This document shows, in pieces, positions 23,715 through 62,730 of a stretch of 64,000 nucleotides of DNA. The stretch comes from Microbacterium sorbitolivorans. Lineage in GTDB: Bacteria > Actinomycetota > Actinomycetes > Actinomycetales > Microbacteriaceae. The notes beneath the pieces are model-generated. The model searched no databases and was not told the origin of the DNA. It saw only the letters and a list, made by a program, of their open reading frames with translations. The position numbers and the translations under genes are program-made. Location of the stretch: positions 1 to 64,000 of the forward strand of contig NZ_KZ848473.1 of assembly GCF_003327285.1 (NCBI RefSeq), read 5' to 3'. The stretch's first letter is position 1. Each line of letters opens with the position of its first letter.

Positions 23715-23788
23715 CGGGCTGTGGCGCAGCTTGGTAGCGCACCTGACTGGGGGTCAGGGGGTCGCAGGTTCAAATCCTGTCAGCCCGA
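23715..23788 (+). tRNA. tRNA-Pro (anticodon GGG)
   Basis: A complete cloverleaf is present. The acceptor is CGGGCTG with CAGCCCG. The D arm is GCGC-AGCTTGGTA-GCGC. The anticodon stem is CCTGA/TCAGG around CTGGGGG, giving anticodon GGG at 23749-23751. The T arm is GCAGG-TTCAAAT-CCTGT, with discriminator A. CCA is not encoded. The 3' part from the anticodon loop onward is the attachment repeat of the ICE. Confidence 0.95.
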
Positions 23789-23808
23789 CGTAAAAGCCCA
23801 GGTGAGAG
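23747..23808 (+). repeat. attL: 62-bp core repeat at tRNA-Pro
   Basis: It is identical to 60020-60081. It starts at the first base of the anticodon loop, covers the tRNA 3' half and runs 20 bp beyond. Similarity continues past it for over 100 bp because the next element's int end is homologous. Confidence 0.92.
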
Positions 23809-23994: not shown

Positions 23995-25224
23995 TTACAG
24001 GCGCCTGGCTGAGGGGCCGCTGCGCCGAGCTTGCTTGCGCTGTCCGGCGGCGGAAAGGAAGGCGTTGGCCTGCTCGGCTGCCGAGGCGAGGTGCCGGTCG
24101 TCGGGGTGGAGGTAGCCGCGGGTGGTTTCCATCGAGGCGTGCCCGAGGATGTCTTGGAGGACGTGTAGCGGGATGCCGGCGTCGGCCATCCAGGTCGCCC
24201 CGGTGTGGCGCAGGCCATGCCGGGTGAGGTCGGGTAGTCCGAGCTTCGCGACGATGCTGTCCCAGTCGGTGGCGTCGCGGACGGTCGCGGTGGTGAGGTA
24301 GCCGCCCTTCGGGCCGACCAGCAACGAGTCTTCGGACCGCTTGCCTTCGGTGAGGCGTTCCAGCACCGGCCGGAGCGGTTCGAGGATCGGCACCCGGCGC
24401 TCTTTGCGGCTCTTGGTCGGCTTGGTCACCAGGCCGCCCTTGCCGGGGAACACCTGCCGGCGGATCACCACGAGGTTCTTGTCGAAGTCGACATCCCCGA
24501 CCTGCAACCCAGACACCTCTGAGGACCGGGCCGCGAGCAGCGCGGCGAGCATCACGAAGTCGCTGTAGGACTGATGCACCTTCCCGCATGCGCGCGCGAG
24601 GCGGTTGAGGGTCTTCATGTCCGGGATCGCGTGCGCCCGCGGGGAGGCGTGTTCGGCGGACTGGCCGCGGAAGGCGTTGCGGTTCAGGCTCCGCTTGGCA
24701 CGGTTCTTCGCGGGGTTGATCTGGATCAGCCCGTCCCGGACCGCTTCATCGAGCACGCGGACCAGCGGCGCGATGGAGTTCTTGATGGTCGACGCTCCGT
24801 GGCGTTGCTCCCACTCATCAATGGTGCGGTCGATGATCCCCGCGGTGATCTGGGTGACCGGCAGATGCCCGAGCGCGGGCAGCACCCGCAGCTTCAGCCC
24901 GTACCCGTAGGTCTCACCGGTGGAGGTCGGGTCCAGGCCACGCGCCCACCGGTCGCCGATGGAGGTGACGAACTCCAGCAGCGTCATGAACACGTCCATG
25001 CCCTTGGTCGAGGAGCTGCGGAGCTGGTCGAAGAACGCGTGCGCGGCCGCCTCATCCCGCACGATCTCCGATCGGATCACCCGGCGCTTGGTGGTCGGGT
25101 CCGTCCACCGGGCGCGGGCGCGGATGCCGTAGGAGCGGCGCTCCATGTCCGTGGAGACCTTCACACCGATCGGCGGGACCGGCTTGGGCTCGGCGGTCGG
25201 CTGCGGCTCAGCTCTCCGCGGCAT
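23995..25224 (-). CDS. Tyrosine-recombinase integrase
   Basis: The protein has 409 residues. Catalytic residues are visible: R233 (AARSSEVSGL), H336 and R339 (RHGLRHTGA), H362 (ILGHASM) and Y371 (RGYLHPD). A core-binding SAM-like domain lies around 75-170. The N-terminal 70 residues include an AP2-like arm-binding region. The gene lies beside the tRNA and points towards it, the normal int layout. It overlaps xis by 17 bp. A near-identical but broken copy lies at 60283-61308. Confidence 0.95.
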   Translation of the reverse strand: MPRRAEPQPTAEPKPVPPIGVKVSTDMERRSYGIRARARWTDPTTKRRVIRSEIVRDEAAAHAFFDQLRSSSTKGMDVFMTLLEFVTSIGDRWARGLDPTSTGETYGYGLKLRVLPALGHLPVTQITAGIIDRTIDEWEQRHGASTIKNSIAPLVRVLDEAVRDGLIQINPAKNRAKRSLNRNAFRGQSAEHASPRAHAIPDMKTLNRLARACGKVHQSYSDFVMLAALLAARSSEVSGLQVGDVDFDKNLVVIRRQVFPGKGGLVTKPTKSRKERRVPILEPLRPVLERLTEGKRSEDSLLVGPKGGYLTTATVRDATDWDSIVAKLGLPDLTRHGLRHTGATWMADAGIPLHVLQDILGHASMETTRGYLHPDDRHLASAAEQANAFLSAAGQRKQARRSGPSARRL

Positions 25225-42758: not shown

Positions 42759-42900
42759 CGCGGGACCTCCCTCCGCCAGGGCCGCCCCGGGAGGGAGCAG
42801 CCGTGCGACCACGAGGTACGCCGGGCGGATCAGGAAGACGAGACGGACGACGGAAACGAGACTGGCGACCGTCAGGCTCCGCGACGAACCCGACTGGTCT

Positions 42901-43932: not shown

Positions 43933-43971
43933 AGAGCACCTCGTCCATCACATTTACGTGCTCGCGGATGC

Positions 43972-45519: not shown

Positions 45520-45560
45520 TCCGTCACAGCGGCAGCGGCCGCAGCAGAAGCACCTGACAT
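45507..45560 (-). CDS. Leader peptide upstream of MFS1
   Basis: This 17-residue ORF (MSGASAAAAAAVTETLR) is preceded by AGGATGGGAGG and ends at TAG, 107 nt before the MFS1 start. Its last codons are the segment that can pair with the MFS1 SD. A run of six Ala codons may be the stalling region. The layout matches translational attenuators of antibiotic-resistance genes. Confidence 0.5.
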   Translation of the reverse strand: MSGASAAAAAAVTETLR

Positions 45561-45715
45561 GCCTCCCATCCTAACCGACAGCAACTACGGATGCTTCGGC
45601 CCTGCTGTCCTACGTCCCGCGTTGAGACGCCCCGTCGACGTGGCGCCGGGCTGCGCCAGCCCGCCGCCACCCTCTCGCAGGTCACCAGAGCCACCACACG
45701 TCTTTCAGACGAGGC

Positions 45716-45755
45716 GCGAGCCGTCCCGAGTCGCATTGGATGCGATCGGGCTCGC
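45716..45755 (+). promoter_or_regulatory. Candidate oriT hairpin before the relaxase
   Basis: An imperfect long hairpin forms here: GCGAGC/GCTCGC (45716-45721 with 45750-45755), CCGA/TCGG and TCGCAT/ATGCGA around loop TGG. It has a 4-nt and a 1-nt bulge. It ends 44 bp before the relaxase start. oriT near a MobF relaxase gene often carries such a stem; the nic site is not identified. Confidence 0.4.
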
Positions 45756-45798
45756 GGGCTCACCTGCCCTCCGAACGCCGGCGGAAGGAGCAGCCCAG

Positions 45799-48700
45799 GT
45801 GACGGTTTCGATGCGCGTGATGAGCGCGGGCGATGGGTACAAGTACCTGTTGAAGTCCATCGCCGCGGGCGACGGCGACCGGAGCCTGAGCACGCCACTG
45901 ACCCGCTACTACGCGGAGGCGGGGACGCCGCCGGGCTTCTGGGTGGGCTCGGGGCTGGGCCAGCTCGGGCACGGCGAGCTGGTCGAGCGAGCGCAGGTCT
46001 CAGAAGCTCAGCTCGCGCTGTTGATCGGGATGGGCCATGACCCGATCACGGGCGAGCCGCTGGGCCGCTCCTACCAGCAGTTCGCGTCAATCGGAGAACG
46101 GATCAAGCAGCGCGTCGACGCCCTCGACCCCGAGTTGGGGCCGGCGACTCGAGCGCAGGAAGTAGCTGCGATCGAGGCGGAGGAAGCCGAGCGCGGCACC
46201 CGCCGCGCGGTAGCCGGTTACGACTTCACGTTCAGCGTGCCGAAGTCGGTCTCCACGATCTGGGCGGTTGCCGACGCCGGCACCCAAGCCCTGATCGCGG
46301 ACGCCCATCATGCGGCGGTTGCAGAGCTGGTTGCGTTCCTCGAACGCGAGGTTGCCGCAACCCGCGTCGGTGCAACCGGCCCGGACGGCGCGGTTGCGCA
46401 CGTCGATGTCGCCGGAGTCGTGGCCGCGGCGTTCGATCACTACGACAGCCGCGCCGGCGACCCGCAGTTGCACACCCACGTCGTCATCAGCAACAAGGTC
46501 CTGACCGTGCAGGACGGGCGTTGGCGGACCCTCGCGGGCCGCCCGATGCACGCGGTGGTCGTCGCGGTCTCCGAGCTCTACAACGCCGCTCTGGCCGATC
46601 AGCTCACCCGTGTCCTCGGCGTCGAGTGGGAGGCCCGCGAACGTGGCAGGGACCGGAACCCGGCATGGGAAATCGAGGGTGTGCCCGACGAACTCGTGGC
46701 CGAGTTCTCCACCCGGTCACGGCACATCGAGGCCGAGAAAGACCGCCTCATCGCGGAGTACGTCGCCAAGCACGGCAGGCAGCCCTCATCCCGAACGGTG
46801 CTGAAACTGCGGGCACAGGCGACACTCGCCACGAGGCCGGAGAAGGAGGTCCGCTCGCTGGCCGATCTCACCGCCGAGTGGCGACAGCGCGCCGGCCGGG
46901 TGCTGCGCCGGGAAGCGAACGGCTGGGCGCGCACCCTCACGACGGCGAACGCACAGGCACCACGGCGAGTGCTGCGCGCCGACGACGTGCCACTGGATGT
47001 AGTGCGCGAGGTCGGGCAGACCGTGATGGAGACGGTCGGTGAGAAGCGCTCGACCTGGACCCGCTGGAACCTGCACGCCGAAGCATCCCGGCAGTTGATG
47101 GGGTGGCGGTTCGCCAGCATCCAGGACCGGGAGGCGATCACCGGGCTCGTGGTCGATGCCGCCGAGCACGCTTCGCTGCGGCTGACGCCGCCGGAGCTGG
47201 CGTCGAGCCCGTTGCAGTTCCGCCGCATGGACGGCACCTCCCGGTTCCGCCCGCACGCCTCGACCCTGTTCTCCTCCGAAGCCCTGCTGGCCGCCGAAGA
47301 CCGACTCCTGACACGCGCCGCTGACACCTCCGGGCAGGTGGTGCCGTTGGAGACGGTCGAGAGGATCGCCCGCAGGCCCGACGCGCGCGGCCGGGTGCTC
47401 GGCGAGGATCAGGCCGCGGCCCTTGCCGCGATCGCGGTCTCCGGTCGTGTCGTGGACGTGCTGGTCGGTCCGGCTGGGGCCGGGAAGACGACAGCGATGA
47501 ACGGGCTCCGGCGGGCGTGGGAGAAGGAGCACGGCGCCGGCTCGGTGATCGGGCTCGCCCCCTCGGCGGTCGCCGCGCAGGTCCTTGCCGATGACCTCGG
47601 CATCGCTACCGAGAACACGGCGAAGTGGTGGCAGAACCACATCATGTACGGGACTACGTTCACGGCCGGGCAGCTCGTCATCATCGACGAGGCGAGCCTG
47701 GCCGGAACGATGTCGCTGGATCGGCTCACCCGTGAAGCCGAGAAGGCCGGCGCGAAAGTCCTCCTGGTCGGCGACTGGGGCCAGCTCCAATCACCCGGCG
47801 CCGGCGGCAGCTTCGCGATGCTCGTGCACGATCGCGACGACGCCCCCGAGCTGACCGATCTGCACCGCTTCACCAACGAGTGGGAGAAGACCACTTCGCT
47901 CCAGCTCCGCCACGGACGCGCCGAGGCGATCGACACCCTGATCGAGCACGGCCGGATCACCGGGGGCGATGAGGAAGCGATGATCGACGCCGCCTACACC
48001 GCATGGCGACGTGATCTTGCCGCCGGGCGCGCGTCGATCCTGGTCACCGAGACCCACGCGACCGTCACCGAGCTGAACGCCAGGGCGCGGGCGGATCGGA
48101 TCATCGACGGCACCGTGAATCCCACCCGCGAACTGCCGCTGCGCGACGGCACCGCGGTCTCGGAGGGCGATCTGGTCATCACCCGCGAGAACGACCGGCG
48201 GCTCCGTAACGGCCGAACGTGGGTCCGCAACGGCGCCCGCTGGATCGTCACCGGGGTTCGGGAGGACGGGTCGGTCAGCATCCGCCCGGCCGGACGCAGG
48301 TTCGGCGGCGGGATCGTCCTGCCGGCCGACTACGTGGCCGAGCACCTGGACCTCGGCTACGCGATCACTGCGCACCGCGCCCAGGGCGTGACCACCGACA
48401 CCGCGCACGCGGTTGTCACCGCCACCACCACGCGGGAGAACTTCTACGTCTCCATGACCCGCGGCGCCCACAGCAACCACGCCTACGTCGCCGTCGGCCG
48501 AGAAGACGTCGAACACGCGGTGCCGCATCCCGGCGACAACCCGAACATCACCGCCCGCTCGATCCTCTACGGCGTGTTGCAGCACATCGGTGCCGAGCTG
48601 TCCGCGCACGAGACGATCGCCGCCGAGCAAGACCGCTGGGGCTCGATCGCCCAACTCGCGGCCGAGTACGACACCATCGCGCAAGCCGCTCAGCACGATC

Positions 48701-49365
48701 GCTGGGCGACCTTGCTCGCCGCGTCCGGGCTCACGGTCGAGCAGATCGAAGACGTGCTCGGCTCCGACGCCTACGGCGCGCTGTCGGCCGAGCTGCGCTA
48801 CGCCGAGGCCAACCATCACGACCTCGACGCGCTGCTCCCGCGTTTGGTCGCCGCGCGGAGCCTGGACGATGCCGACGATATCGCCTCCGTCCTGCACGCC
48901 CGCGTCGCGCGCGCCACCGTCCGGCCCGCTGGCTCAGGCCGCACTCGCAAGTCCCCGAGGCTGATCGTCGGATTGATCCCGCACGCTGGCGGGCAGATGA
49001 CCGAGGACATGCGGCAAGCCCTGGACGAGCGCCACGAGCTGATCGAAGCCCGCGCCGACGGCGTGCTCCGCGGTGCCCTCAGCGATAAGGAGCCGTGGGT
49101 AGCGAAGCTCGGCACGGTGCCGAAGGACAAGAAGCAACAGGCGGCATGGTGGCGCGCTGCTCGCACAGTCGCGGCCTACCGCGACCGCTATCAGATCACC
49201 GACACCAGCACCCCGCTCGGCACCGAACCAGAAAACACCAGTCAGAAGATCGACTCCATCCGCGCCCGCGCCGCCCTCAACCGCGCCCAAGCCATCGCTG
49301 CCGACAACGCACCGGCGGAGCAACACCGGACGAACGTCGTGGTGCGGCAGGGGCCGAGCCTTTAA
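45799..49365 (+). CDS. MobF-family relaxase-helicase (TrwC/TraA-like)
   Basis: The protein has 1188 residues from GTG 45799, with AAGGAG 8 bp upstream. The longer ORF back to 45559 overlaps the MFS1 leader region and is not conserved-looking. The TrwC relaxase domain (1-300) has Tyr residues in DGYKYLL, FTFSVPKSVSTIWA and the His motif H225-T-H227. The RecD-like helicase has Walker A GPAGAGKTT (about 557-565), IIDEASLAG and the C-terminal YAITAHRAQGVTTD. The C-terminus of about 250 residues is helical. It nicks oriT and unwinds the transferred strand. Confidence 0.93.
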   Translation: MTVSMRVMSAGDGYKYLLKSIAAGDGDRSLSTPLTRYYAEAGTPPGFWVGSGLGQLGHGELVERAQVSEAQLALLIGMGHDPITGEPLGRSYQQFASIGERIKQRVDALDPELGPATRAQEVAAIEAEEAERGTRRAVAGYDFTFSVPKSVSTIWAVADAGTQALIADAHHAAVAELVAFLEREVAATRVGATGPDGAVAHVDVAGVVAAAFDHYDSRAGDPQLHTHVVISNKVLTVQDGRWRTLAGRPMHAVVVAVSELYNAALADQLTRVLGVEWEARERGRDRNPAWEIEGVPDELVAEFSTRSRHIEAEKDRLIAEYVAKHGRQPSSRTVLKLRAQATLATRPEKEVRSLADLTAEWRQRAGRVLRREANGWARTLTTANAQAPRRVLRADDVPLDVVREVGQTVMETVGEKRSTWTRWNLHAEASRQLMGWRFASIQDREAITGLVVDAAEHASLRLTPPELASSPLQFRRMDGTSRFRPHASTLFSSEALLAAEDRLLTRAADTSGQVVPLETVERIARRPDARGRVLGEDQAAALAAIAVSGRVVDVLVGPAGAGKTTAMNGLRRAWEKEHGAGSVIGLAPSAVAAQVLADDLGIATENTAKWWQNHIMYGTTFTAGQLVIIDEASLAGTMSLDRLTREAEKAGAKVLLVGDWGQLQSPGAGGSFAMLVHDRDDAPELTDLHRFTNEWEKTTSLQLRHGRAEAIDTLIEHGRITGGDEEAMIDAAYTAWRRDLAAGRASILVTETHATVTELNARARADRIIDGTVNPTRELPLRDGTAVSEGDLVITRENDRRLRNGRTWVRNGARWIVTGVREDGSVSIRPAGRRFGGGIVLPADYVAEHLDLGYAITAHRAQGVTTDTAHAVVTATTTRENFYVSMTRGAHSNHAYVAVGREDVEHAVPHPGDNPNITARSILYGVLQHIGAELSAHETIAAEQDRWGSIAQLAAEYDTIAQAAQHDRWATLLAASGLTVEQIEDVLGSDAYGALSAELRYAEANHHDLDALLPRLVAARSLDDADDIASVLHARVARATVRPAGSGRTRKSPRLIVGLIPHAGGQMTEDMRQALDERHELIEARADGVLRGALSDKEPWVAKLGTVPKDKKQQAAWWRAARTVAAYRDRYQITDTSTPLGTEPENTSQKIDSIRARAALNRAQAIAADNAPAEQHRTNVVVRQGPSL

Positions 49366-50306: not shown

Positions 50307-50354
50307 CGTGCTGTCGAACCCCGTCGGTGCCGGGTCTTCGTTCCGTGGTCGGTC

Positions 50355-51518: not shown

Positions 51519-51527
51519 AAGTGTGCT

Positions 51528-51581
51528 TCCGAAACATGAGAGAGCGGGTACGGGTGCGTATGGCACGACCGGTGTTTCGGA
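51528..51581 (-). promoter_or_regulatory. SD-sequestering stem of MFS2
   Basis: An 8-bp perfect inverted repeat, TCCGAAAC (51581-51574) and GTTTCGGA (51535-51528), covers GGA of the MFS2 SD (51530-51526). A ribosome halted at the end of the leader ORF (stop 51591-51593) would reach the upstream arm and free the SD. Confidence 0.55.
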
Positions 51582-51781: not shown

Positions 51782-52783
51782 TCAGAGCGAGGGTCCCGGT
51801 GCGCCCGAAGACGGCCACCGGTAGCCGAGGTCCCGTCCAAGCTCCGATCGCGCAACAACGCGGTTTGGGGCGTTGGAATCGAGCAGAGCGATCACGTCGC
51901 TCGGCTGAGTGACGAGCACGGCGAAGCCTTGCTTGATGAGTTCGTTCGGTCCGGCACTGGCGACGCTGGTCACCGGGCCGGGCACCGCGCCCACGCCCCG
52001 GCCGAGTTCGCGTGCGGCGATGACAGTGGTCATCGACCCGGACCGAGGGCTGGCCTCGGGGATCACGGTTAGACCCGAGAGCGCCGCCAGCAGGCGGTTG
52101 CGAGCAAGGAACCTATACCTGGTCGGTGCGGCTCCCGGCGGCAGCTCGCTCACCAACAGCCCGACATCCCCAATGCGACTCAGCAGCTCACTGTGCCCGG
52201 CCGGGTAGGGGCGATCCAGCCCGCCGGTCAGGACCGCGATCGTCTGACCGCTCGCGGCGAGCACGCTCTTGTGCGCGGCGCCTTCGATCCCGTAGGCACC
52301 ACCGGAGACGACGACCCGTTCTTCATCAGCCAGGCCCATCGCCAGCTCGCCGGCGACGTGCTCGCCGTAGGGGGTCGCAGCGCGAGCGCCCGTGATCGTG
52401 GCCCGATCGCTCAGCGGCGTCGTCAAGAACGAGGCCGCGCCGCGCGTCCACAGCAGGTACGGCGCACGCTCGCCCAGGTTGTTCAGGCCGGCGGGCCATT
52501 CCTTGTCCGCCGGGATGAGCGTGCCGAACCCGTGGCGCTCCGCCTGAGCCATCTGATCCAGCAGACCGGGCGTGACCCGCGCCGTCAGTCGTTCGCGCCA
52601 CATCAGTGCGTCGGCGCGGGCCAGGCCGGGCACCTCGTCGTCGGACTCGATCAGCCGCAGCGTCTCGACCCCGCCGTGACGGGTGAGGACGTGGCCGGTG
52701 GCCGGGTCGTTAGGTTCGGCGATCATCGACAAGGCGATCCGCGCCATCCGCTCACCCTGCACCTGCTCCGCCAACGTCGCCAT
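51782..52783 (-). CDS. dprA: DprA-like DNA-processing protein
   Basis: The protein has 333 residues from ATG 52783 (MATLAEQVQGERM), with AAGGGA about 9 bp upstream. The Rossmann-like DprA core has LWTRG, ARAATPYGEH, VVVSGGAYGIEGAAH and VLTGGLDRPYPAGH, then SELPPGAAPTRYRFLARNRLLAALS. This family loads RecA onto incoming ssDNA. On an ICE it may process transferred DNA or act in defence. It is not in a dprA-comM chromosomal context. Confidence 0.9.
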   Translation of the reverse strand: MATLAEQVQGERMARIALSMIAEPNDPATGHVLTRHGGVETLRLIESDDEVPGLARADALMWRERLTARVTPGLLDQMAQAERHGFGTLIPADKEWPAGLNNLGERAPYLLWTRGAASFLTTPLSDRATITGARAATPYGEHVAGELAMGLADEERVVVSGGAYGIEGAAHKSVLAASGQTIAVLTGGLDRPYPAGHSELLSRIGDVGLLVSELPPGAAPTRYRFLARNRLLAALSGLTVIPEASPRSGSMTTVIAARELGRGVGAVPGPVTSVASAGPNELIKQGFAVLVTQPSDVIALLDSNAPNRVVARSELGRDLGYRWPSSGAPGPSL

Positions 52784-52855
52784 GATCGGTGTCCCTTCCG
52801 CTCCAAGGTCACCGACGAGGTACACGCCCGGCTGCCGCCGGGGTTCCCTCTGTCG

Positions 52856-52874
52856 CGAGTCAGTCGTAGACTCG
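52856..52874. promoter_or_regulatory. Short inverted repeat in the dprA divergent region
   Basis: CGAGTC and GACTCG are separated by 7 bp. They lie in the 211-bp gap between dprA (minus) and a membrane gene (plus). It could be an operator; the evidence is weak. Confidence 0.25.
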
Positions 52875-52994
52875 GTAGCGAGGCAGATTCAGTAAACTAC
52901 GCGGGTCCTTCGGGACGGCCCCTCGCGGGCACTCGGTTCATAGCCGCCTCCACGACGGAACACCGTCGCGCTATGACGAGGAATGAGGCCCGCA

Positions 52995-53324
52995 ATGCTC
53001 CGGACGTGCGTGGCGCTCAGCGCACGAGGCTATGGCGTACTCCGCTACGCACCCACGAATCTGCTGCTCAACGCGATCCGCACACGGCGCGGCCTGAAGT
53101 GGGGCGTCCCCGCGATGCTGCTCGCCGGGGTCTACTTCTACGCCGCGGCGATCTGCACCACGATCATCAACGACGGCGGCCCCGGCTGGCTCTACCTGCT
53201 GGTCCTGCTGTTGGTCTGGAACGCCTTCAGGTTCCTCTGGATCGGCCCCGTCAGTCTGATCCAGCTCATAAGTGTCCGTGCGGGGGAGCGTCGCGAACGG
53301 CAACCGGTGCCGTCCTCGCGGTGA
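52995..53324 (+). CDS. Small membrane protein of unknown function
   Basis: The protein has 109 residues from ATG 52995, with GAGG 6 bp upstream (ATG 52983 possible). Two hydrophobic segments ([40 protein letters not shown]) are TM. The N-terminus is basic. I recognise no family. It lies between dprA and the defence cluster. Confidence 0.65.
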
Positions 53325-53448
53325 CGCGCAGGCGAGCCCACCGCGCCGTAAGGCACTGACCACGACACAGTCGCATTCGGTTGGCGCGTCCCTTCGCGGT
53401 GTACCGCATCGATTCGGCGTGTCGATGGCTCTGTGATGTCGTTACGAG

Positions 53449-53454
53449 TAGTAT
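53449..53454 (+). promoter_or_regulatory. Possible -10 of the defence-cluster operon
   Basis: TAGTAT lies 7 bp before ATG 53462, a spacing that would give a leaderless mRNA. The -35 region is poor. Confidence 0.35.
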
Positions 53455-53461
53455 CCGTTAC

Positions 53462-53656
53462 ATGCAGGACCTCACGAGCCTCAGCGACGCGGGCCTCACT
53501 GACGTTGATCGAGCGCTGCGTCATGAGCGGCTACGTCGCCGTAAGGCGTGGCGTAACTGCGAGCGCTGCGATCAGGCGTTCCTCGGTCGAGGTGATGCGC
53601 GCTTCTGCTCGGCTCGCTGCCGAGTCGCCGCGCATCGAGCAGGGAAGGAGTCCTGA
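53462..53656 (+). CDS. Small zinc-ribbon protein coupled to the methylase
   Basis: The protein has 64 residues. It has an N-terminal helix and then C-ERC-DQAFLGRGDARF-C-SARC, a four-Cys zinc motif of the kind in small DNA- or RNA-binding proteins. Its TGA overlaps the ATG of the methylase, so the two are made together. Confidence 0.7.
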   Translation: MQDLTSLSDAGLTDVDRALRHERLRRRKAWRNCERCDQAFLGRGDARFCSARCRVAAHRAGKES

Positions 53657-54564
53657 TGAGTGACACGCTGCGGGTTGTCGCGTCACGTCGGTACGGAACG
53701 CTCTCGCCGCTCCGCTATCCGGGAGGAAAGGCGGCGCTCGCTGGCTTCTTTGGCGACATCATCGATGCCCTCAGGGTCGAGCGCGCACGCTATATCGAGC
53801 CATATGCCGGTGGCGTGGGAGCTGGGATTGCGTTGCTCCGCGAGGGCATTGTCGAAGAACTGGTTGTCAACGACATTGACCCTGCGGTGTACGCCTTCTG
53901 GAAATCTGCGGTCGGAGACAATGCCAACTTCGTTGAAATGGTTGCGTCCGTCCCACTCACGATCGCTGAATGGCAGAAGCAGCGAGAGATATACAGATCG
54001 CGCGATGAGCGAGATTCACTCCGCCTCGGGTTCGCCTTCTTCTTTCTGAACAGGACCAATCGTTCAGGGATTCTGAATGCCGGAGTTATCGGCGGTCAGC
54101 GGCAGGAAGGGAGATACAAGATTGACGCCCGCTTCAATCGTGAAACGCTCATCGAACGATTGACTGCGATCGGAGGCCTGGCCGATCAGATCACGGTCTC
54201 AGACCTTGACGGCAGGACAGTGATCCAGCGTTACGCTCAGGACGATCGAGCATTTATGTACATCGATCCGCCCTATGTTCAGGCAGGGTCTCAGCTCTAC
54301 CTCAACGCGTTCGACGGGCGCGATCACACAGCCCTCGCGGCGATCGTCAATACGGTTGAGAAGGCGCACTGGCTCATGACGTATGACACGGCTCCACTGA
54401 TTGAGAAGCTGTATCGCGAGCACTTCCAATGCCGCTTGGAGCTGACCTACTCCGCGCGGTATCCGGGGCAGGCCGAAGAACTGCTCGTTGCATCGCCCGC
54501 GGTCGCCGGTGTGGTCAAGGCGTTGCAGGGGCAGACTGTAATGGCGGACGCAACAAGCGCCTGA
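53656..54564 (+). CDS. D12-class adenine-N6 DNA methyltransferase (Dam-like)
   Basis: The protein has 302 residues. Motif X is LRYPGGKAAL, motif I (SAM) is EPYAGGVGAGIALL and catalytic motif IV is DPPY (204-207) in YIDPPYVQ. The Dam class (GATC-type target) is likely, but the target site cannot be read. No cognate restriction endonuclease is adjacent. Its 3' end overlaps the opposing ParB-domain gene by 50 bp. The base composition looks less GC-rich than the ICE backbone. Confidence 0.9.
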   Translation: MSDTLRVVASRRYGTLSPLRYPGGKAALAGFFGDIIDALRVERARYIEPYAGGVGAGIALLREGIVEELVVNDIDPAVYAFWKSAVGDNANFVEMVASVPLTIAEWQKQREIYRSRDERDSLRLGFAFFFLNRTNRSGILNAGVIGGQRQEGRYKIDARFNRETLIERLTAIGGLADQITVSDLDGRTVIQRYAQDDRAFMYIDPPYVQAGSQLYLNAFDGRDHTALAAIVNTVEKAHWLMTYDTAPLIEKLYREHFQCRLELTYSARYPGQAEELLVASPAVAGVVKALQGQTVMADATSA

Positions 54565-56032
54565 GCAGCGGATTGACCACCTTCCACGCCTGCCGAACGT
54601 CCTCTGCGGTCACTGACGCATCTGCGCTGTGCGCGATGAGATTGAACCACTGGATAGAGCCATGTTTGTGGGCGTTTCCCGACTGTATGGCGCCGATGGT
54701 CGATTTGAGAGTCTTCTCCGAGCCATAGGTTTGCGCGACCACTTTGAAAACCGCACTCAACTCGCCTGTCGCGGGCGTTGCGGAGCCCTCAAAATGGACT
54801 TTGATGGTGGCTTCGAGAACAGAGCGCAATAGGATCGCGGACGCGATAGGCAAGTTTCCCAGGTTGATCCGTCGTAGCTCGAAGTAGCGCAGTTTGAGGT
54901 TCAGTGGTGCGTTCTCGTAGTCGAGGCCAGACAGATCGAGCGTGTCCTTTGTGTCTGGATGGTTCGGTCCACGGCTTCCTGCTCCGCTCGGAGGCTCCGG
55001 CTGGGGTGGCGTTGCCCCGCCGGTCGCGCTGCCGGGACCGCTTGGAGGCATTCCGTGGCTGCCACCTTGCGACGGTCCAGGCGGAGTCGGTGGTGCGGGC
55101 GCGGCGGGTGATGGTGTCGGCGTTGCTGTAGTGGGTACACCGTTGAGACGGTCCACGAACGGCTGGTAGGCGTCATCACGCTTCTTGAGCTCCGGAGAGC
55201 GGGTGTTGAGCCTTCCAGCGCGAAACTCCCCGACTAGATACTCCAATGCACCGAGCTTCTTCTTTGGAAGTTCCGACGCGATCTTTTCGGGAGTTGAGGA
55301 CCGAGGAAGCAACATGCCGTCTCTATCGAACTCCACCCCGATCGCAGCCGCGATGTCCTTACTTCGGTACGCGTACTCAAAGGCCGACATCGCCAAGTCG
55401 TCGCTGGCGGCGTACTGCCGGAGGGTGTGATCGGAGAATGGCGCAGCGGCAAGGAAGCGTCGCATCACAGCCATCTTCATGAACCTTGCGACCTCGACAT
55501 CGGGGTACTGCGCCTTGACGTCCTCCACAGTCGTCTGGTCGTCCACGAGTGAGTAGTAGAAGGTTGCTTGTTGGTCGCGGCTCCACCGCTTCTTGGAGAT
55601 GCCAGTGTGCAGTCGGGCAACGTGCGGGGCGGCGGTCGCGCGATCAGTCGCCACGATCACGCGGATTCGCTCGGGGAGGTTCTCTGCCTCGACTGCGTAC
55701 CGCTTGAGCAGTGAGCGAACCTCGGCTTCGTGACCAGGCACGATCGTCGGGTCGTAGAGAGCCTTGAGTGCGCTGACGCGCCGGTTGCCTTCCAGGACGA
55801 TGTACGAAGGCGGCTCGTCCCGTGACTCCGCCGCGATCACGATCGGCACCTCGTTGTCGAAGTAGCCGTCGCGGAGGATCAGCCGCGCCGCGCCGAGGAC
55901 GTCCTCGGAAGCGAACAGATACTTCAAGGCTCCGGCTTCATCGTCGCGACGCGTCGGGATGCGGTAGTTCTCCAGGTCGAGCAGGAGCCGGCTCAGTTCG
56001 ACCTCCACGATGGGTAGCTGCTCGTAAGCCAT
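54515..56032 (-). CDS. ParB/Srx-domain protein with Pro-rich linker, defence cluster
   Basis: The protein has 505 residues. The N-terminal ParB-like domain has NYRIPTRRDDE, YIVLEGNRRVSALKAL (the GNRR motif of the ParB/sulfiredoxin fold) and LHTGISKKRWSRDQQATF. A Pro/Gly/Ser linker lies around 305-360. The C-terminal helical domain of about 140 residues has YFELRRINLGNLPIASAILLRSVLEA. I recognise no named system. It is convergent with the methylase (50-bp overlap) and divergent from the OLD nuclease gene. Confidence 0.78.
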   Translation of the reverse strand: MAYEQLPIVEVELSRLLLDLENYRIPTRRDDEAGALKYLFASEDVLGAARLILRDGYFDNEVPIVIAAESRDEPPSYIVLEGNRRVSALKALYDPTIVPGHEAEVRSLLKRYAVEAENLPERIRVIVATDRATAAPHVARLHTGISKKRWSRDQQATFYYSLVDDQTTVEDVKAQYPDVEVARFMKMAVMRRFLAAAPFSDHTLRQYAASDDLAMSAFEYAYRSKDIAAAIGVEFDRDGMLLPRSSTPEKIASELPKKKLGALEYLVGEFRAGRLNTRSPELKKRDDAYQPFVDRLNGVPTTATPTPSPAAPAPPTPPGPSQGGSHGMPPSGPGSATGGATPPQPEPPSGAGSRGPNHPDTKDTLDLSGLDYENAPLNLKLRYFELRRINLGNLPIASAILLRSVLEATIKVHFEGSATPATGELSAVFKVVAQTYGSEKTLKSTIGAIQSGNAHKHGSIQWFNLIAHSADASVTAEDVRQAWKVVNPLLRRLLRPPLQSAPATP

Positions 56033-56553
56033 GTCCAGCCTCGTCTCGATGATTCGTCCGGCGATCTACGCCCTCGGTGCCGAACGGACGAGAGCTGTCG
56101 TTCAGTCCTAACCGTAGCCGCGCGGTTTCGCGATCGGGCTGAGACACGTCGAGGCGCATCAACCGGAGCTCCGCTGATGCGCGAACGCACGAACTGGTTG
56201 CCATAGGCGCCCGTGACGCCGTGACAGTTCTCGACGCGGGCAGGCGCCCAGGCACGGGACCACGGTCATGCAAATCATTCAGCATGCCGGCGACGCCGCG
56301 TGGGTCGCCTGAACTGCGGAACCAGACGGAACGAGGCCGAGCTGCCGCTTCGGACGCTTGTACGGAACCTGTCGTCGCGTGTCTCACGGGACGGCCATGG
56401 TGCGTCGCCGCCTGGTACTGACCACAGTCCGTGGGACGATAGGCATGGGAGCCGCCGGTTCCGAGCGGGAGAAGGTCCGTTGATTCACGCTCATCGTCCC
56501 GTTGCGAGCCGAGCGCTCAGCTTGCATCGGGGGGGGTATGCAAGGAGTAGCCA
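56033..56553. other. 521-bp divergent intergenic region
   Basis: No ORF here has convincing coding character. The region must hold promoters for the ParB-domain gene (minus) and the OLD/UvrD pair (plus). The only clear site is the SD-overlapping hairpin at 56521-56544. Confidence 0.5.
56521..56544 (+). promoter_or_regulatory. Hairpin with G8 loop over the OLD-nuclease SD
   Basis: CTTGCAT (56521-56527) and ATGCAAG (56538-56544) form a perfect 7-bp inverted repeat. The loop contains eight consecutive G (56529-56536). The right arm overlaps the SD AAGGAG (56542-56547) of the gene at 56554. Confidence 0.5.
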
Positions 56554-58275
56554 ATGAGGGTCGCGCGCATCCGTATCGGACGCTTCCGGGGTTATCGCCA
56601 TGCAGCGCTCGTGGTGCCAGAGAACATGGTGCTTGCAGGTGAGCCGCAGGCGGGCCGCACTGACATCGTCGAGGCCCTGCGCCGGGTTCTCGACGCCCGC
56701 AGTACTCGGTCCCGCGTGAATCCTCTCGACGTCTACCGACCTGCTGACGGCGATGAAGAGTCCTTGACGGAGGTAGAGGTGACTCTCCTCGACCTCGGGG
56801 AGGACGTAGAAACTCTTCTCAGCGAGAATCTGGAAACGTTCGACCGGGCAACCGGGGAGATCGCCACGCCAAGCAACGCGGGCGACGCGGTTCTGGGCGT
56901 ACGTCTGTGCTATCGCGCACGATATGACCTCGATACGGACACCGGTGAGCACTGGGTGGATTACCCGGCGCGAAGTGATCCCGCTGCCGGTGTGTTCAAG
57001 AAGGCGAGCCGGATCGAGCGTGAGTCTCTGCCTGTCCAGTTCGTTGACAGTGCGCCGGCTCTCCAGCTGCGGGCAGAGGGAGTCCTGAGAGCACTCCTTG
57101 CTGATGCCGATCCTGGTGGCCTGGACAGCGCCCTCACCGATCTGGATTCGGCCGTCCATGCTGCAACCGGGTCGTTCTCTGAGACGGAGGTGGTCACTAG
57201 CGTTCTGGATAAGGTAATTGATTCCGGACCGCAGGCTCTCTTCGGTATCGATGACTCCGCCGACATCAGTTTTCTGGCGGATGACGGTTCTATGGCTGCC
57301 CTCCTCAGAGCGCTTCAACCAGCGATCTCGATGGGTGCGGCCGGGGCCCTTCCCGTCCGTTCCCAGGGGTCGACTCTCGAGAGTGTGCTCTCGGCCGCTG
57401 AAGCCATCGCAGCCGCGCGAGATGCACAATCAGGCGTCGTCATCATCGGCGATGACTTTGGAGATCGCCTTGACGCATCTTCATCTGAACACATGGCGCG
57501 GCTCATCCACGTAACGGCAGGGCAAGCGATCCTCACAACGCGCCGTCCTGAGGTAGTACGAGCATTCGATCCCGGTGAGCTGGTTCGGCTCACGGTCAGC
57601 CACGGCGAGAGACGACAGCACCAGCTCTCTGCAGTCACGGACAAGACGGGCCGAGTCAACCGGAGGCTCATCCTGGAGCAGCTTCTCGCAGCGCTGAGCG
57701 CGAGAACCGTTGTCCTCCTGGAGGGGCCGCTCGATGTCGAGGGGTACGGCGCGCTCGCGTCGCGGCTCTTCCGGAAGACGAACGAACCGCACCACAGCCT
57801 CCCCGCTAACGGCATCCGCCTGGTCGCCCCGCCAGGGTCAGACGGAGGAGTTACCCGGCTCCCAGCCATTGCCGAGATCGCCCTTGAACTCGGATTCCAC
57901 GTCCGAGCGATCGTCGACAATGACAAGCCAGGACACGAAGATCCAGCAGTCGGAGTCCTTGCAGGAATGGTCGAACAACTCGTCGTGCTTCCCACTCGCA
58001 CCGCCGTGGAGGCCGCGCTCATCCGCGGCGTACCTGGAGATCAGCTCCGAGAGACGGTCGAGACCCTGGAAGACTTCGGCATGCCTGCCCTGCCACCCGA
58101 TCTCGGCGACGACGACATCGCGGACCACCTCATCGCGACGAAAGTGATCAAGAAGCAGGGGCTAGGGGCAGCCTGGGCTCACGCACTGACACGACAGCCG
58201 CCGATCGCGCGGTCCGCGATCGAAGCAGTCTGCGGCGATACGCTCGGACGCATCGACATCCCTGATCTGCCATGA
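56554..58275 (+). CDS. OLD-family ATPase/TOPRIM nuclease (Gabija GajA-like)
   Basis: The protein has 573 residues from ATG 56554, with AAGGAG 7 bp upstream. The N-terminal ABC-type ATPase starts IRIGRFRGYRHAALV. The Walker A position reads G29-EPQAG-R35-T36, with Arg where Lys is expected. A Walker B-like VVIIGDDFGD lies near residue 300. The C-terminal TOPRIM domain has E390 (VVLLEGPLDVEGY) and D455-N-D457 (AIVDNDKPG). Length and architecture match GajA (about 578). It overlaps the UvrD gene by 4 bp. A GajAB complex is known to block phages by nicking DNA when NTPs fall; the role here is inferred. Confidence 0.85.
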   Translation: MRVARIRIGRFRGYRHAALVVPENMVLAGEPQAGRTDIVEALRRVLDARSTRSRVNPLDVYRPADGDEESLTEVEVTLLDLGEDVETLLSENLETFDRATGEIATPSNAGDAVLGVRLCYRARYDLDTDTGEHWVDYPARSDPAAGVFKKASRIERESLPVQFVDSAPALQLRAEGVLRALLADADPGGLDSALTDLDSAVHAATGSFSETEVVTSVLDKVIDSGPQALFGIDDSADISFLADDGSMAALLRALQPAISMGAAGALPVRSQGSTLESVLSAAEAIAAARDAQSGVVIIGDDFGDRLDASSSEHMARLIHVTAGQAILTTRRPEVVRAFDPGELVRLTVSHGERRQHQLSAVTDKTGRVNRRLILEQLLAALSARTVVLLEGPLDVEGYGALASRLFRKTNEPHHSLPANGIRLVAPPGSDGGVTRLPAIAEIALELGFHVRAIVDNDKPGHEDPAVGVLAGMVEQLVVLPTRTAVEAALIRGVPGDQLRETVETLEDFGMPALPPDLGDDDIADHLIATKVIKKQGLGAAWAHALTRQPPIARSAIEAVCGDTLGRIDIPDLP

Positions 58276-59894
58276 CATTCGCCCCGCAGAACCCGGAGCA
58301 GCAGCGAGTCGTAGCGACGCAGGCCGAACTCACTGTCGTGCTCGGCGGAGCGGGTGTCGGAAAGACGACCAGCGCGCTCGCCGCAGCTCACGCCCATCTT
58401 GAACGAGTAGCAGAAAGCGAACCCCACGATCGGGTCCTGTTCCTCTCGTTCTCTCGTTCCTCGGTGGCGCGCATCGCCTCCCGCGCAAATGAGATTCTCG
58501 GCCGCCGAGGCTCCCAGGTGGACATCATGACGTTCCACTCGCTCGCGTTCTCCGTGGTCCGGAGATTCGGGAATCTGGTCGGACACGGCGACGCCGTCCT
58601 CGTCAGCCCCGCTCGCGAGAAGCTCGGGCTGGCCCAGCACGAGATCGGATACAGCAGGCTCATCCCGCTCACACTTGAAATCGCTCAGGCCGCACCTGCT
58701 GTCGCAGAACACCTTCGCACCCGATGGGGCCTCGTAATCGTCGACGAGTTTCAGGACACCGGCGATGCGCAGCAAGACCTCCTTCAGCTGATTGCCCGCG
58801 ACAGCAGGTTGATACTGCTCGGCGACCCGAACCAGTGCATCTACACGTTCCTCGCCGAAGACGGCGTCAGAGTGGAGCGCATCGATGAAGCCTGCTCGGC
58901 CGCTGGGACAGAGAACACCATCCTGCTGCCAGAAACCTCCTTCCGAGACCCCTCCGGGATCATCCCGGCCGTCGCCAACGCCATCAGGGGACGCCTGTTC
59001 GGCTCAGAGGCCATCGCGGCCGCCATCCAGGACGAAAGACTGGTCATCCAAGACGGAATACCACTCTCCGACGAGACCAGTCAGGTCGCACGGGTCGTTA
59101 GCGAGTTGGCCGCGGAAGATATGGGCGTGGCAGTATTCACGCACCATAACGACATGCTCGCGGCTCTCTCGGATGCACTTGAAGCCGCCGGGATCGAACA
59201 TGAAGTTGCTGGTCTCAGTGACGCGCTCGCCGCCGCTCTCGACGCCCAGACAGCGATGGCGCGATTCCACACCGGCGATGGCACCTGGGGAATTGTTCTC
59301 GAAGCGATAGCCGTGTTCCTGACGAGCGCGCAACGTGGGCAGAAGGCGCCCCCCATCGCGTACCAGGTGATGAACGGTTCAGGCCCCACGACCCTGCAAG
59401 CTCGCCTGAGCGCTCTTCGAGAGCGTCTCTCCGAGGCGGGGTCCATTCGGGAGGTAATCGAGGTAGCGGCGACGGCACACGACGCGCTCGGACTACCGCA
59501 GAAGTCGGGCGCCTGGCAGCAAGCAGCCACCCTGCTCTCGGTGATGTACGCGCGAGCGGCACGCACGAGCAGCGCCCGCGATGACCGTCAGATGGTTGCA
59601 GCGATCTGTGCGGAAGCTCGTGAGGCGAGTTACGCGGCGCTCACGGACTCGGCGCTGAGCCCGCGAGAGGTTCAACTAATGAACCTCTACCAGACGAAGG
59701 GACGCGAGGCCGACGCAACCGTCGTGGTGTTGCGGGAGGGAGACTTCATGGGCTACGAATCGGAACCGTTCCCCACAACAAGTCGGCTCCTCTACGTGGT
59801 CTTTTCCAGAGCCAGACACAAGATCGTCGTGCTGCTCGTGGGCAACAGGTTCCACGCCGCCGTAGCGCCTCTCGCGGCTCTGGCCGCGAACTGA
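58272..59894 (+). CDS. UvrD/Rep-type helicase (Gabija GajB-like)
   Basis: The protein has 540 residues. Walker A is GGAGVGKTT (25-33), motif II is VDEFQDT (157-163) and motif III is LLGDPNQCIYTF. C-terminal MNLYQTKGREADATVVV and LLYVVFSRARHKIVVLL are motifs V and VI. It has no nuclease domain. It lies directly after the OLD nuclease gene with an ATGA overlap, as gajB does in Gabija. It ends 14 bp before the right-end arm sites. Confidence 0.87.
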   Translation: MTFAPQNPEQQRVVATQAELTVVLGGAGVGKTTSALAAAHAHLERVAESEPHDRVLFLSFSRSSVARIASRANEILGRRGSQVDIMTFHSLAFSVVRRFGNLVGHGDAVLVSPAREKLGLAQHEIGYSRLIPLTLEIAQAAPAVAEHLRTRWGLVIVDEFQDTGDAQQDLLQLIARDSRLILLGDPNQCIYTFLAEDGVRVERIDEACSAAGTENTILLPETSFRDPSGIIPAVANAIRGRLFGSEAIAAAIQDERLVIQDGIPLSDETSQVARVVSELAAEDMGVAVFTHHNDMLAALSDALEAAGIEHEVAGLSDALAAALDAQTAMARFHTGDGTWGIVLEAIAVFLTSAQRGQKAPPIAYQVMNGSGPTTLQARLSALRERLSEAGSIREVIEVAATAHDALGLPQKSGAWQQAATLLSVMYARAARTSSARDDRQMVAAICAEAREASYAALTDSALSPREVQLMNLYQTKGREADATVVVLREGDFMGYESEPFPTTSRLLYVVFSRARHKIVVLLVGNRFHAAVAPLAALAAN

Positions 59895-59907
59895 GCTTGC
59901 CTACGAG

Positions 59908-59929
59908 GGGGACCAGAAGGGGACCAGAA
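59908..59929. promoter_or_regulatory. Putative integrase arm-type sites, right end
   Basis: Two tandem copies of GGGGACCAGAA (59908-59918 and 59919-59929) match the 11-bp units at the left end of the element. Confidence 0.55.
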
Positions 59930-60019
59930 TCATGCAATCCATGCATCCCGTGACGTGTTCTGCATGATCTGACGCCCGGAATCACGCGGAATCCGGGCAG
60001 ACCGGAGCCGTCTGGACGC

Positions 60020-60081
60020 CTGGGGGTCAGGGGGTCGCAGGTTCAAATCCTGTCAGCCCGACGTAAAAGCCCAGGTGAGAG
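60020..60081 (+). repeat. attR: second 62-bp core repeat
   Basis: It is identical to 23747-23808. It holds only the tRNA 3' half from the anticodon loop, not a whole tRNA. It marks the right end of the ICE and the left end of the downstream element remnant. Confidence 0.92.
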
Positions 60082-60125
60082 TAGGTTTCTCGCCTGGGCT
60101 TCTTCATGTCCGGGGGTCGTTTTCC

Positions 60126-60246
60126 GTGGTCCCCCTCTGGTCCCCCCCCGGCGCTCTCGTTGGTGGTCGACTGTGGACGAACGGACCGCCCTGGACCTGC
60201 TTCCTGTGGATAAGGGGACCAGAAGGGGACCAAAAGGGGACCAGAA
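60126..60246. promoter_or_regulatory. Arm-type sites of the downstream remnant
   Basis: Two inverted 11-bp units (60126-60145) and three direct ones (60214-60246) repeat the layout at 23851-23960. TGTGGATAA occurs again at 60205-60213. Confidence 0.5.
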
Positions 60247-60282
60247 CGCTTCCGGGAGCACTCCCGCGGGGGTGGGAGCGCA

Positions 60283-61308
60283 TCACAGGCCCCTGGTCGC
60301 GGGGCTGCTGCGCCGGGTGTGCTTGCGTTGTCCGGCGGCGGAGAGGAAGGCGTTGGCCTGCTCAGCGGCGGAGGCGAGGTGGCGGTCGTCGGGGTGCAGG
60401 TAGCCGCGGGTGGTCTCCATCGACGCGTGCCCGAGGATGTCTTGGAGGACGTGCAGCGGGATGCCAGCGTCGGCCATCCAGGTCGCCCCGGTGTGACGTA
60501 GCCCGTGCCGGGTGAGGTCGGGCAGGCCGAGCTTCGCGACGATGCCGTCCCAGTTGGTGGCGTCGCGGACGGTCGCGGTGGTGAGGTAGCCGCCCTTCGG
60601 GCCGACCAGTAGCGAGTCCTCGGGCTCCTTGCCGTCGGTGAGGCGTTCCAGCACGGGCCGGAGAGGTTCGAGGATCGGCACGCGGCGTTCTTTGCGGCTC
60701 TTGGTCGGCTTGGTGACCAGTCCGCCCTTGCCGGGGAACACCTGCCGGCGGATCACCACGAGGTTCTTGTCGAAGTCGACGTCCCCGACCTGCAACCCGG
60801 AGACCTCCGAGGATCGGGCCGCGAGCAGCGCGGCGAGCATCACGAAGTCGCTGTAGGACTGATGGACCTTCCCACACGCCCTGGTGAGCCGGTTGAGGGT
60901 CTTCATGTCGGGGATCGCGTGCGCCCGCGGGGAGGCGTGTTCGGCGGACTGGCCGCGGAAGGCGTTGCGGTTCAGGCTCCGCTTGGCACGGTTCTTCGCG
61001 GGGTTGATCTGGATCAGTCCGTCCCGCACGGCTTCATCGAGCACCCGGACGAGCGGGGCGATAGTGTTCTTGATGGTCGAGGCACCGTGGCGCTGTTCCC
61101 ACTCATCAATGGTGCGGATCGATGATCCCCGCGGTGATCTGGGTGACCGGCAGATGCCCGAGCGCGGGCAGCACCCGCAGCTTCAGCCCGTACCCGTAGG
61201 TCTCACCGGTGGAGGTCGGGTCCAGGCCACGCGCCCACCGGTCGCCGATGGAGGTGACGAACTCCAGCAGCGTCATGGACACTTCCATGCCCTTGGTCGA
61301 GGAGCCGC
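60283..61308 (-). pseudogene. Broken second integrase copy
   Basis: It is highly similar to the integrase at 23995-25224, with catalytic residues still present (RHGLRHTGA, LGHASMETTRGY). One extra base near 61118 (GGTGCGGATCGATG versus GGTGCGGTCGATG in the first copy) shifts the frame. The first 70 or so codons are missing; the sequence departs from the intact copy at about 61308, where an AraC fragment begins. It cannot make a full integrase. Confidence 0.88.
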
Positions 61309-61437
61309 GGACCCAGAGCGGACGATGACAACCTTGATGCAGTCATACGCCACCGGACCGATCGGACGATGCTCGGTCCGGGTCAAGGCCGTGATGGGTG
61401 AGCGCAGGCCTTGTTCGTCTGCCTCGAATCCCAACAT
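61309..61437 (-). pseudogene. 5' fragment of a third AraC-family regulator
   Basis: The first 43 codons (MLGFEADEQGLRSPITALTR, then VAYDCIKVVIVRSGS) align with AraC1 and AraC2. The rest is replaced by integrase sequence. It lies just after MFS3, the position the other two regulators hold relative to MFS1 and MFS2. Confidence 0.8.
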
Positions 61438-61452
61438 GTTCTTGACCCGGAC
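61376..61452. repeat. Nested, mutually exclusive inverted repeats at AraC3
   Basis: A 12-bp perfect pair (61376-61387 with 61441-61452) and a 7-bp pair (61384-61390 with 61407-61413) share bases 61384-61387. The inner pair is at the codons that carry the inverted repeats in AraC1 and AraC2. Confidence 0.7.
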
Positions 61453-61461
61453 AGTCGCGTC

Positions 61462-62730
61462 TCAGCGTTCGTCCAGTGAGCGTTCCATCTCGCTTTCGCG
61501 CATCCGCCCCGCCAGCAGAGCGATCAGCGCAAGGGCGGGTGGCGCGATGCCGGCAATGACGAAGATCACGGGGATGGGCACGAGCAGTGAGAGCGGGCCT
61601 GCGATGGCGATCGAGACCGGCATGAAGGCGATCGAGACGAAGAAGTCGAGGCTCGCGACTCGGCCGATCATGTCGAGCGGCACCAGACGTTGCAGCAGGG
61701 TTCCCCAGATGACGACACCGGCTCCGGTCGCCGCGCCGACGATGAACAGTGCTGAGAGCATCAGAATCAGGTTGTCGGCGACACCGATGACCGCAAGGGG
61801 GAGGGTTCCGCCGCCCCAGCAAGCGATCATGAATGTGAGGTAGCGGCGCGGGAGTTTCAGCGATGACACAACGAGTGAGCCGATCGCCCCGCCGATGCCG
61901 AATGCGGCAAGGAGGAAACCGAACGTCGATTCGGCGTCCTCGAACCTGTCGCGGGTGATGAACGGCAGCAGCACTTCGATCGGTCCCTGGATGATGAGGG
62001 CGAGAGAGGAGCCGAAGATCAGAGTCCAGAGCAACCAGCGAGTGCGAGCCACATAGTTGACGCCTGCTCGAAGGTCGCCCCACACACTCGTGCGCTGCTC
62101 CGGAGAAGTGACCGTGGTCAGTTCGTCGCGTCGACTGAGGAACAGAGTGAGGATGAACGCGATCGCGTACGACGCTGCGACGATCATGGCCCCGATGGCG
62201 GGAAAGAACGTGCCGACGACGATTCCGCCGAGGGCGGGACCGAGGCCTTGCCCCATCGAGGGTCGGAGAGCGCCTTCGAGCCCGTTCGCGGCGAGGAGCT
62301 GCTCAGACTGAAGCACCTGGGGCAGATACGCGCTGTAGGCGGGGTAGAAGAACGCGCTTCCTGCGCCCATCGCGAAGGAAGCGGCGCCGACGTGCCACAG
62401 TTCGATCGTCTCGGTGAGGGACAGGACTGCCACCACGGTCATCACAGCCGCGGTGCATCCCTGCACGGTGATGATGATGCGTCGTTTGGAGAACCGATCG
62501 GCGACAACGCCACCCAGGATCGAGAAGGCGAACAGGCCCAAGCTCATCCCTGTTGCGACCGCTGAGAGCGCGAGCGGGCTGTCATCGAGCGCGAGGACTT
62601 GGAAGACCATCACGATGGTCCACATCCCGGTGCCGAAGACCTCGATGCCGACTGCGGCGAACAGGAGCCGATAATCCCGCGAACCCAGTGGCCGCAGGGC
62701 ACGTATCCGGTTGAGGTTCTTCTCGCTCAT
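61462..62730 (-). CDS. 12-TM MFS exporter (MefA/Tap-like), MFS3
   Basis: The protein has 422 residues from ATG 62730 ([21 protein letters not shown]); the ORF open to 62778 runs into the ABC-F gene. About 12 TM segments are present. Motif A is [15 protein letters not shown]. It resembles MFS_3-type exporters such as MefA or Tap. Its ATG overlaps the ABC-F stop (ATGA). An exporter behind an ABC-F gene recalls the mef-msr macrolide pair; the drug is not known. Confidence 0.82.

Follow-up and report, generated by a model that had tools for sequence, protein, structure and literature searches.

Do the five genes at the right end of an element integrated in the Microbacterium sorbitolivorans genome form one antiphage system, or two systems that happen to lie side by side? 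The genes occupy positions 53462 to 59894 of the window, the whole stretch of 64,000 nucleotides (nt) analysed here (contig NZ_KZ848473.1), and a preliminary description made from the letters alone left both readings standing: Gabija with an adjoining module, or an expanded five-gene system of a kind not described before. All five open reading frames (ORFs) were confirmed at their coordinates in the window. We consider it quite probable that they make up two separate modules, a PD-lambda-5-type module with a zinc-ribbon gene and a Gabija module, located at the right end of an element with conjugation genes and each likely defending independently against phages. By their sequences, these are modules of known kinds that have spread together as near-identical copies, each with a conserved peculiarity. 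The genes and the associated site are as follows.

53462..53656, + strand: zinc-ribbon mini-protein of 64 amino acids (aa), CxxC-x13-CxxxC, start as in close homologues; predicted controller of the methylase operon
53656..54564, + strand: D12-class N6-adenine methyltransferase (PD-Lambda-5_B) with DPPY at residue 204, assigned by Pfam, PADLOC and motif
54515..56032, - strand: PD-Lambda-5_A, with predicted ParB/Srx-like N-terminal and HEPN-like C-terminal folds, assigned by PADLOC and by model and fold matches
56554..58275, + strand: GajA, with an OLD-family ABC ATPase domain (Arg35 at the Walker-A lysine position) and a Toprim domain whose acidic residues are kept
58272..59894, + strand: GajB, a UvrD-like superfamily 1 helicase, assigned by PADLOC, Pfam UvrD-helicase and motifs
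53441..53461, + strand: predicted operator/promoter, GTTAC-GAGTAGTATCC-GTTAC, assigned from the sequence, which goes with the zinc-ribbon gene

Module 1 (53433-56151) contains the zinc-ribbon, methylase and ParB-like genes. As had been proposed, the first of these stands next to the methylase gene and the last is convergent with it, their 3' ends overlapping by 50 nt. The methylase is a member of PADLOC family PD-Lambda-5_B (PDLC04018, expect value (E) 1.2e-99) and of the Pfam D12 class (PF02086, E 4.1e-19); the earlier label 'Dam-like' is accurate to the level of that class but not for Dam itself, since the NCBIfam Dam model gave 52.9 bits, far below its cut-off of 114.85. The convergent gene product is a member of PD-Lambda-5_A (PDLC03998, E 5.1e-32, best stretch residues 8-159). 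Its designation as a ParB-domain protein holds for the predicted fold, a ParB/Srx N-terminal domain followed by a HEPN C-terminal domain, both assigned by structure comparison of the model, but found no counterpart in Pfam, where no model matched at E up to 0.01. The sequence search of solved structures returned no match for this protein, and the Rx4-6H motif of HEPN RNases is absent from its C-terminal domain. The module that adjoins Gabija is itself a described one, identified by PADLOC as PD-Lambda-5 (Vassallo 2022, PMC9519451). In the available text of that paper PD-lambda-5 is called an apparent compacted prophage version of a restriction-modification (RM) plus abortive infection (Abi) system, a reading with which the earlier suggestion that methylation may mark self DNA fits.

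Module 2 (56432-59894) consists of GajA and GajB, whose genes overlap by 4 nt. GajA combines ABC ATPase and Toprim domains, as Gabija requires, and structure comparison aligned 454-485 residues of its model (predicted local distance difference test score 89) with Bacillus GajA and Thermus OLD (8x5i_D, 8sm3_A, 8u7i_A, 6p74); the sequence search of solved structures gave nothing better than an E of 0.2. GajB matches PADLOC (E 8.5e-48) and Pfam UvrD-helicase (E 5.6e-30) models and retains Walker A (GGAGVGKT) and DEFQD motifs. The PADLOC match, the gene pair with its overlap and the GajA fold confirm that the last two genes are Gabija.

Association between the modules was evaluated in a survey of one genome per species, which yielded 45 loci encoding the ParB-like protein. 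The methylase gene adjoins the ParB-like gene in 43, as expected of PD-lambda-5; the two exceptions (L023 and L044) are both near contig ends. GajAB is present in only six of the 45 (L007-L010, L015 and L041), and in 400-base blocks all six match window positions 53381-60062 with 97-100% identity. Similarity stops at 60062-60063, or at 60081 in L041, at the right attachment repeat described below, and in five of the six it drops to 85-92% over the DprA-like gene on the other side. The copies reside in an uncultured Propionibacterium metagenome-assembled genome (MAG), Haematomicrobium, a Nanopelagicales MAG, Nocardia, Microlunatus and a Microbacterium plasmid. Their near-identity across these hosts points to recent transfer of one block between distantly related actinobacteria and not to independent association. 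Among the other 39 loci, an upstream flank of 4 kb or more is available next to the ParB-like gene in 33 non-clonal ones, and none of these contains GajA.

Broader samples gave the same picture. Within 396 genomes of the order, the PD-lambda-5 methylase (E up to 1e-50) was found in 18 and GajA (E below 1e-150) in four, 24 genomes with weaker GajA matches (E 1e-8 or above) being left uncounted. Both occur in two genomes, that of the window and G354, which carries the same block; the 16 other methylase loci had no GajA match in the flanks fetched. GajA was detected in 5 of 394 genomes of the class sample (E up to 1e-60), one taken as the L009 genome, and in 2 of 345 of the family sample (E up to 1e-80). 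Five distant GajA loci (L088-L092; 36-39% identity over the longest match) had no PD-lambda-5 in the 12-20 kb stretches fetched, and in three of them GajB matched over most of its length. L133 (genome G852) carries a 90% aa-identical GajAB within a related element (relaxase 73%, DprA 66% at the nt level) of different gene order and has no zinc-ribbon, methylase or ParB-like gene. The cassette borders are correspondingly discrete: 53433-56151 is common to L013 and L017, which lack GajAB, and 56432-59894 is common to L133. One plasmid record holds the block, with frames partly broken, and two Streptomyces plasmid records contain a GajA relative (39%) and no match to the ParB-like protein. Neither of the two protein alignments used to search viral contigs gave a confirmed relative there, and four phage records gave only weak partial matches to the ParB-like protein.

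These distributions bear on two proposals that would enlarge the system. In a single five-gene system, methylation would shield self DNA from the ParB-like protein and GajAB alike, and the modules would act jointly. The seven near-identical copies, window included, do keep the five-gene order, with some frames broken in L008 and L041; but every locus found with all five families is a copy of this single block, the stretches fetched around GajA in L133 and L088-L092 show no PD-lambda-5, and the module borders are discrete. Lack of co-occurrence in other genomes was one half of the refuting condition that the preliminary description had set for its expanded system; on that half the expanded system is not supported, and we rate joint action as very improbable, whereas 'Gabija with an adjoining module' agrees with both the family matches and the separate cassettes. 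The second proposal would add the DprA-like gene to PD-lambda-5. That gene adjoins the module in 13 of 45 loci, all of them block copies or members of a 78-83% identical group, but beyond these a DprA match occurs in a single locus (L038, about 3.3 kb past the methylase gene). L133 has it without PD-lambda-5. In L008 and L015 its sequence breaks at a shared position, with an interruption in the former and a truncation in the latter, and L013 and L014 carry it as fragments. It was rejected as a component in favor of being an element gene or hitchhiker, and its membership is very improbable.

The peculiarity of module 1 is the zinc-ribbon gene and the site before it. The ATG at 53462, which corresponds to the start of close homologues, is the most likely translation start, although a longer 91-aa frame opens at 53381; the protein matched no Pfam or NCBIfam model. 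Of the 43 loci that have the methylase and ParB-like genes, 25 contain the zinc-ribbon gene, as does one of the 16 additional methylase loci. Directly upstream of it lies GTNAC-N10/11-GTNAC, spanning a -10-like hexamer (TAGTAT, TACTAT, TATAAT and similar). In the window the hexamer TAGTAT is at 53449-53454 and ends 7 nt before the ATG, from which a leaderless promoter may be inferred. The site is exact in 23 of the 26 zinc-ribbon loci and one base off in L014, L015 and L032, whereas a GTNAC pair was found in one of the 14 convergent loci that lack the gene and have upstream sequence (L025, with 8-base spacing; L028 was dropped as lying at a contig edge; Fisher 5.8e-7). After removal of the nearest copies (L007-L010, L014, L015, L017, L018, L035, L041 and L124, together with rows whose methylase match was short), the contrast was 17 of 18 zinc-ribbon rows against 1 of 13 convergent rows without the gene (Fisher 1.1e-6), some retained rows, such as L012, L013 and L016, still being close. 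L126, another locus without a zinc ribbon, has a GTNAC pair 248 bases upstream. The pair appeared in 58 of 10,400 random 90-base stretches of zinc-ribbon loci, real sites included.

Because the site accompanies the gene in this way, the zinc ribbon is likely the controller of the methylase operon, and the simplest reading is that it binds the site and controls its own operon. A methylase tree of 47 rows contains seven changes in zinc-ribbon presence, at least four of them forced by well-supported branches, gains and losses not being told apart. The half-sites also vary in their central base, which in both halves is A/T for the near group and G/C for L026, L027, L030, L033, L036 and L037; the zinc ribbons of these six loci read CSGRCRT, as against mostly CSARCRV in the near group. 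An operator on the ParB side was rejected, as no GTNAC pair was found upstream of any ParB-like gene scanned. A sigma-70 consensus scan returned no promoter-like sites, terminator-like sites numbered six against a shuffle mean of 3.2 (sd 2.0), and Rfam had no match in 52000-62000.

The peculiarity of module 2 is located in the GajA ATP-binding domain. GajA from the window was aligned with those of four loci and 120 database proteins. At the Walker-A lysine position, 116 of the 125 proteins have arginine, one has threonine and eight have a gap (116 of 117 ungapped); because the sample was drawn by similarity to the window GajA, this concerns one branch of the family. The canonical ATP-binding site, a described property of GajA that is no part of the gene-pair definition, is thus absent. 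By our assignment of motif positions, DDFGD occupies the Walker-B region and Arg-Arg the place expected for the H-loop. Over the same 125 rows the Toprim residues are retained (E390 in 124, D394 in 124, D455 in 122 and D457 in 122), which leaves the E, DxD active site complete. According to the accessible part of a review of OLD proteins (PMC10568477), BcGajA does not hydrolyze ATP and is inhibited by it, and the Walker-A lysine is required in P2 Old and Retron-Eco8.

Each peculiarity admits a different interpretation. The GTNAC pair could be the target of the methylase itself, such that methylation shuts its own promoter and the zinc ribbon has another role. GTNAC is a genuine N6-methyladenine methylase target (M.MaeIII, in the available text of PMC10113651), and the half-sites share a center class, A/T or G/C, in every zinc-ribbon locus with an exact pair. 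On the other hand, L022, L029, L031 and L034 group with zinc-ribbon rows in the methylase tree (L029 and L031 together) and keep a related methylase, yet have neither the zinc-ribbon gene nor a pair in the 300 bases searched, and we regard a methylase target as rather unlikely. For GajA, loss of the Walker-A lysine together with Arg-Arg at the expected H-loop position might signify a decayed remnant that is no longer a working nuclease. Against this, the arginine is near-invariant down to 37% identity, the nuclease residues are kept, the GajB motifs of the window are intact and GajA is a single unbroken frame in the six other block copies. A replacement so uniform makes decay unlikely, indeed highly improbable in our judgment, and the near-invariant arginine combined with kept nuclease residues points to gating that is altered in this branch.

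The genes present, the limits of the modules, the counts of co-occurrence, the conservation of the site and the replaced residue were computed here, and every functional step of the following model of two independent modules is inferred from them. Module 1 would work as an RM-plus-Abi device: host DNA would be marked by the D12 methylase, and the ParB-like/HEPN-like protein would recognize unmarked DNA and respond with its C-terminal domain. The methylase level would be set by the zinc-ribbon protein, bound to the pair of GTNAC half-sites that straddle the -10 box of its own gene. Setting the methylase level is the role of C proteins in classical RM systems. In the second module, GajA and GajB would form a complex in which the GajA Toprim domain nicks or cuts phage DNA. 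Since arginine replaces the Walker-A lysine throughout the branch, the ATP-binding domain of this GajA would be gated differently from that of the ATP-inhibited GajA of Bacillus. A bolder version, which we put forward tentatively and at somewhat short of even confidence, is that the 64-aa zinc ribbon represents a new class of RM controller that recognizes the paired GTNAC sites at its own promoter and governs when the methylase acts relative to a ParB-HEPN killer each time the element enters a new host, and that it travels with a Gabija branch in which the ATP-sensing lysine has been swapped for arginine and which is therefore fired by a different trigger.

A small gene co-inherited with a defined DNA site provides a handle on how a naive host could be spared when the element transfers, and on the question whether self DNA is marked by the methylase. 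The arginine branch of GajA puts the nucleotide-sensing model of Gabija to a natural test: should a lysine-replaced GajA still defend, ATP inhibition through the Walker-A lysine is not required. A literature search joining controller protein, restriction-modification and zinc ribbon found none. C-protein-controlled type II RM systems are alike in having a small gene ahead of an RM gene and a paired site at its own promoter; the difference is that the window has a zinc ribbon in place of a helix-turn-helix, GTNAC half-sites, and a ParB-like/HEPN-like partner in place of a classical endonuclease.

Relative to PD-lambda-5 (PMC9519451, as far as its text was available), the window has the same two protein families by PADLOC models, but it adds the zinc-ribbon gene with its conserved upstream site, and its genes are convergent with a 3' overlap. 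The pair is convergent in 38 of the 43 loci and co-directional in five, which are proteobacterial; of the 16 further methylase loci of the order sample, 13 have a ParB-like match, 10 co-directional and three convergent, so that even among actinobacteria the pair is not always convergent. A phenotype is described for PD-lambda-5, and no worked-out mechanism was found in the accessible portions of the literature examined. Gabija, a class 2 OLD nuclease with a UvrD-like helicase (available parts of PMC10781630 and PMC10568477), is matched in gene pair, fold, Toprim residues and GajB motifs; the difference lies in the arginine carried throughout the window's actinobacterial branch. The HEPN survey (PMC3710099), in the sections available, treats ParB-HEPN fusions and ParB/methylase operons and lists a ParB-HEPN fusion as well as HEPN families with H but no R, and the zinc-ribbon gene and site were not found there. 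No description of the zinc ribbon, the GTNAC site or the Walker-A arginine branch was found in the available portions of PMC9519451, PMC12839542, PMC10781630, PMC10568477, PMC10799925, PMC12629846, PMC3710099, PMC10853773 and PMC10113651. Among the PD-lambda-5 loci, L114, L115 and L116 have a ParB-like match on each side of the methylase, two per locus. In L013, L014, L017, L018, L019 and L023 the place upstream of the ParB-like gene that GajAB holds in the window is taken by a conserved family of ORFs (median 138 aa).

The element that carries the block is delimited by a 56-base exact repeat and includes the following features.

23995..25224, - strand: tyrosine integrase of the element, adjoining tRNA-Pro (Pfam Phage_integrase, 2.5e-25)
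45559..49365, + strand: TrwC relaxase-helicase of the element (Pfam TrwC, 2.6e-93)
51782..52825, - strand: DprA-like protein (Pfam PF02481, 8.5e-56, and neighbor comparison)
60020..60075, no strand: right attachment repeat, identical to 23747-23802 (tRNA-Pro 3' end)

Between the repeats are the integrase with a helix-turn-helix gene beside it, a type IV secretion system coupling protein, an M23 peptidase, an M78/ArdC-like protein and the TrwC relaxase, and the block ends at the right end of the element. The repeat, the conjugation genes and a G+C content of 62.6% in 53433-60019 against 69.5% in 23747-53432 bear out the earlier placement of the block at the right end, with lower G+C. The M78 peptidase-like protein (41664-42812) gave a weak ArdC match and is a possible anti-restriction factor for transfer. 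Cargo pairs of an AraC-like regulator and a major facilitator superfamily transporter lie on both sides of the relaxase (42901-45399 and 49374-51566); the latter pair is missing at that place in L009, L010 and L041. To the right of the block, an integrase is split over two frames (60283-61044 and 61106-61288), and elsewhere in the same genome a third attachment-like repeat (C1:65096-65263) is 92% identical to 59905-60072; together these suggest that another element, now decayed, is integrated in tandem at this tRNA-Pro. The dprA match breaks at one position (window 52402-52403) in both L008 (13629/20827) and L015 (13629) and gives way to different DNA carrying an integrase, as though other elements inserted into dprA; its other half was seen in L008 only.
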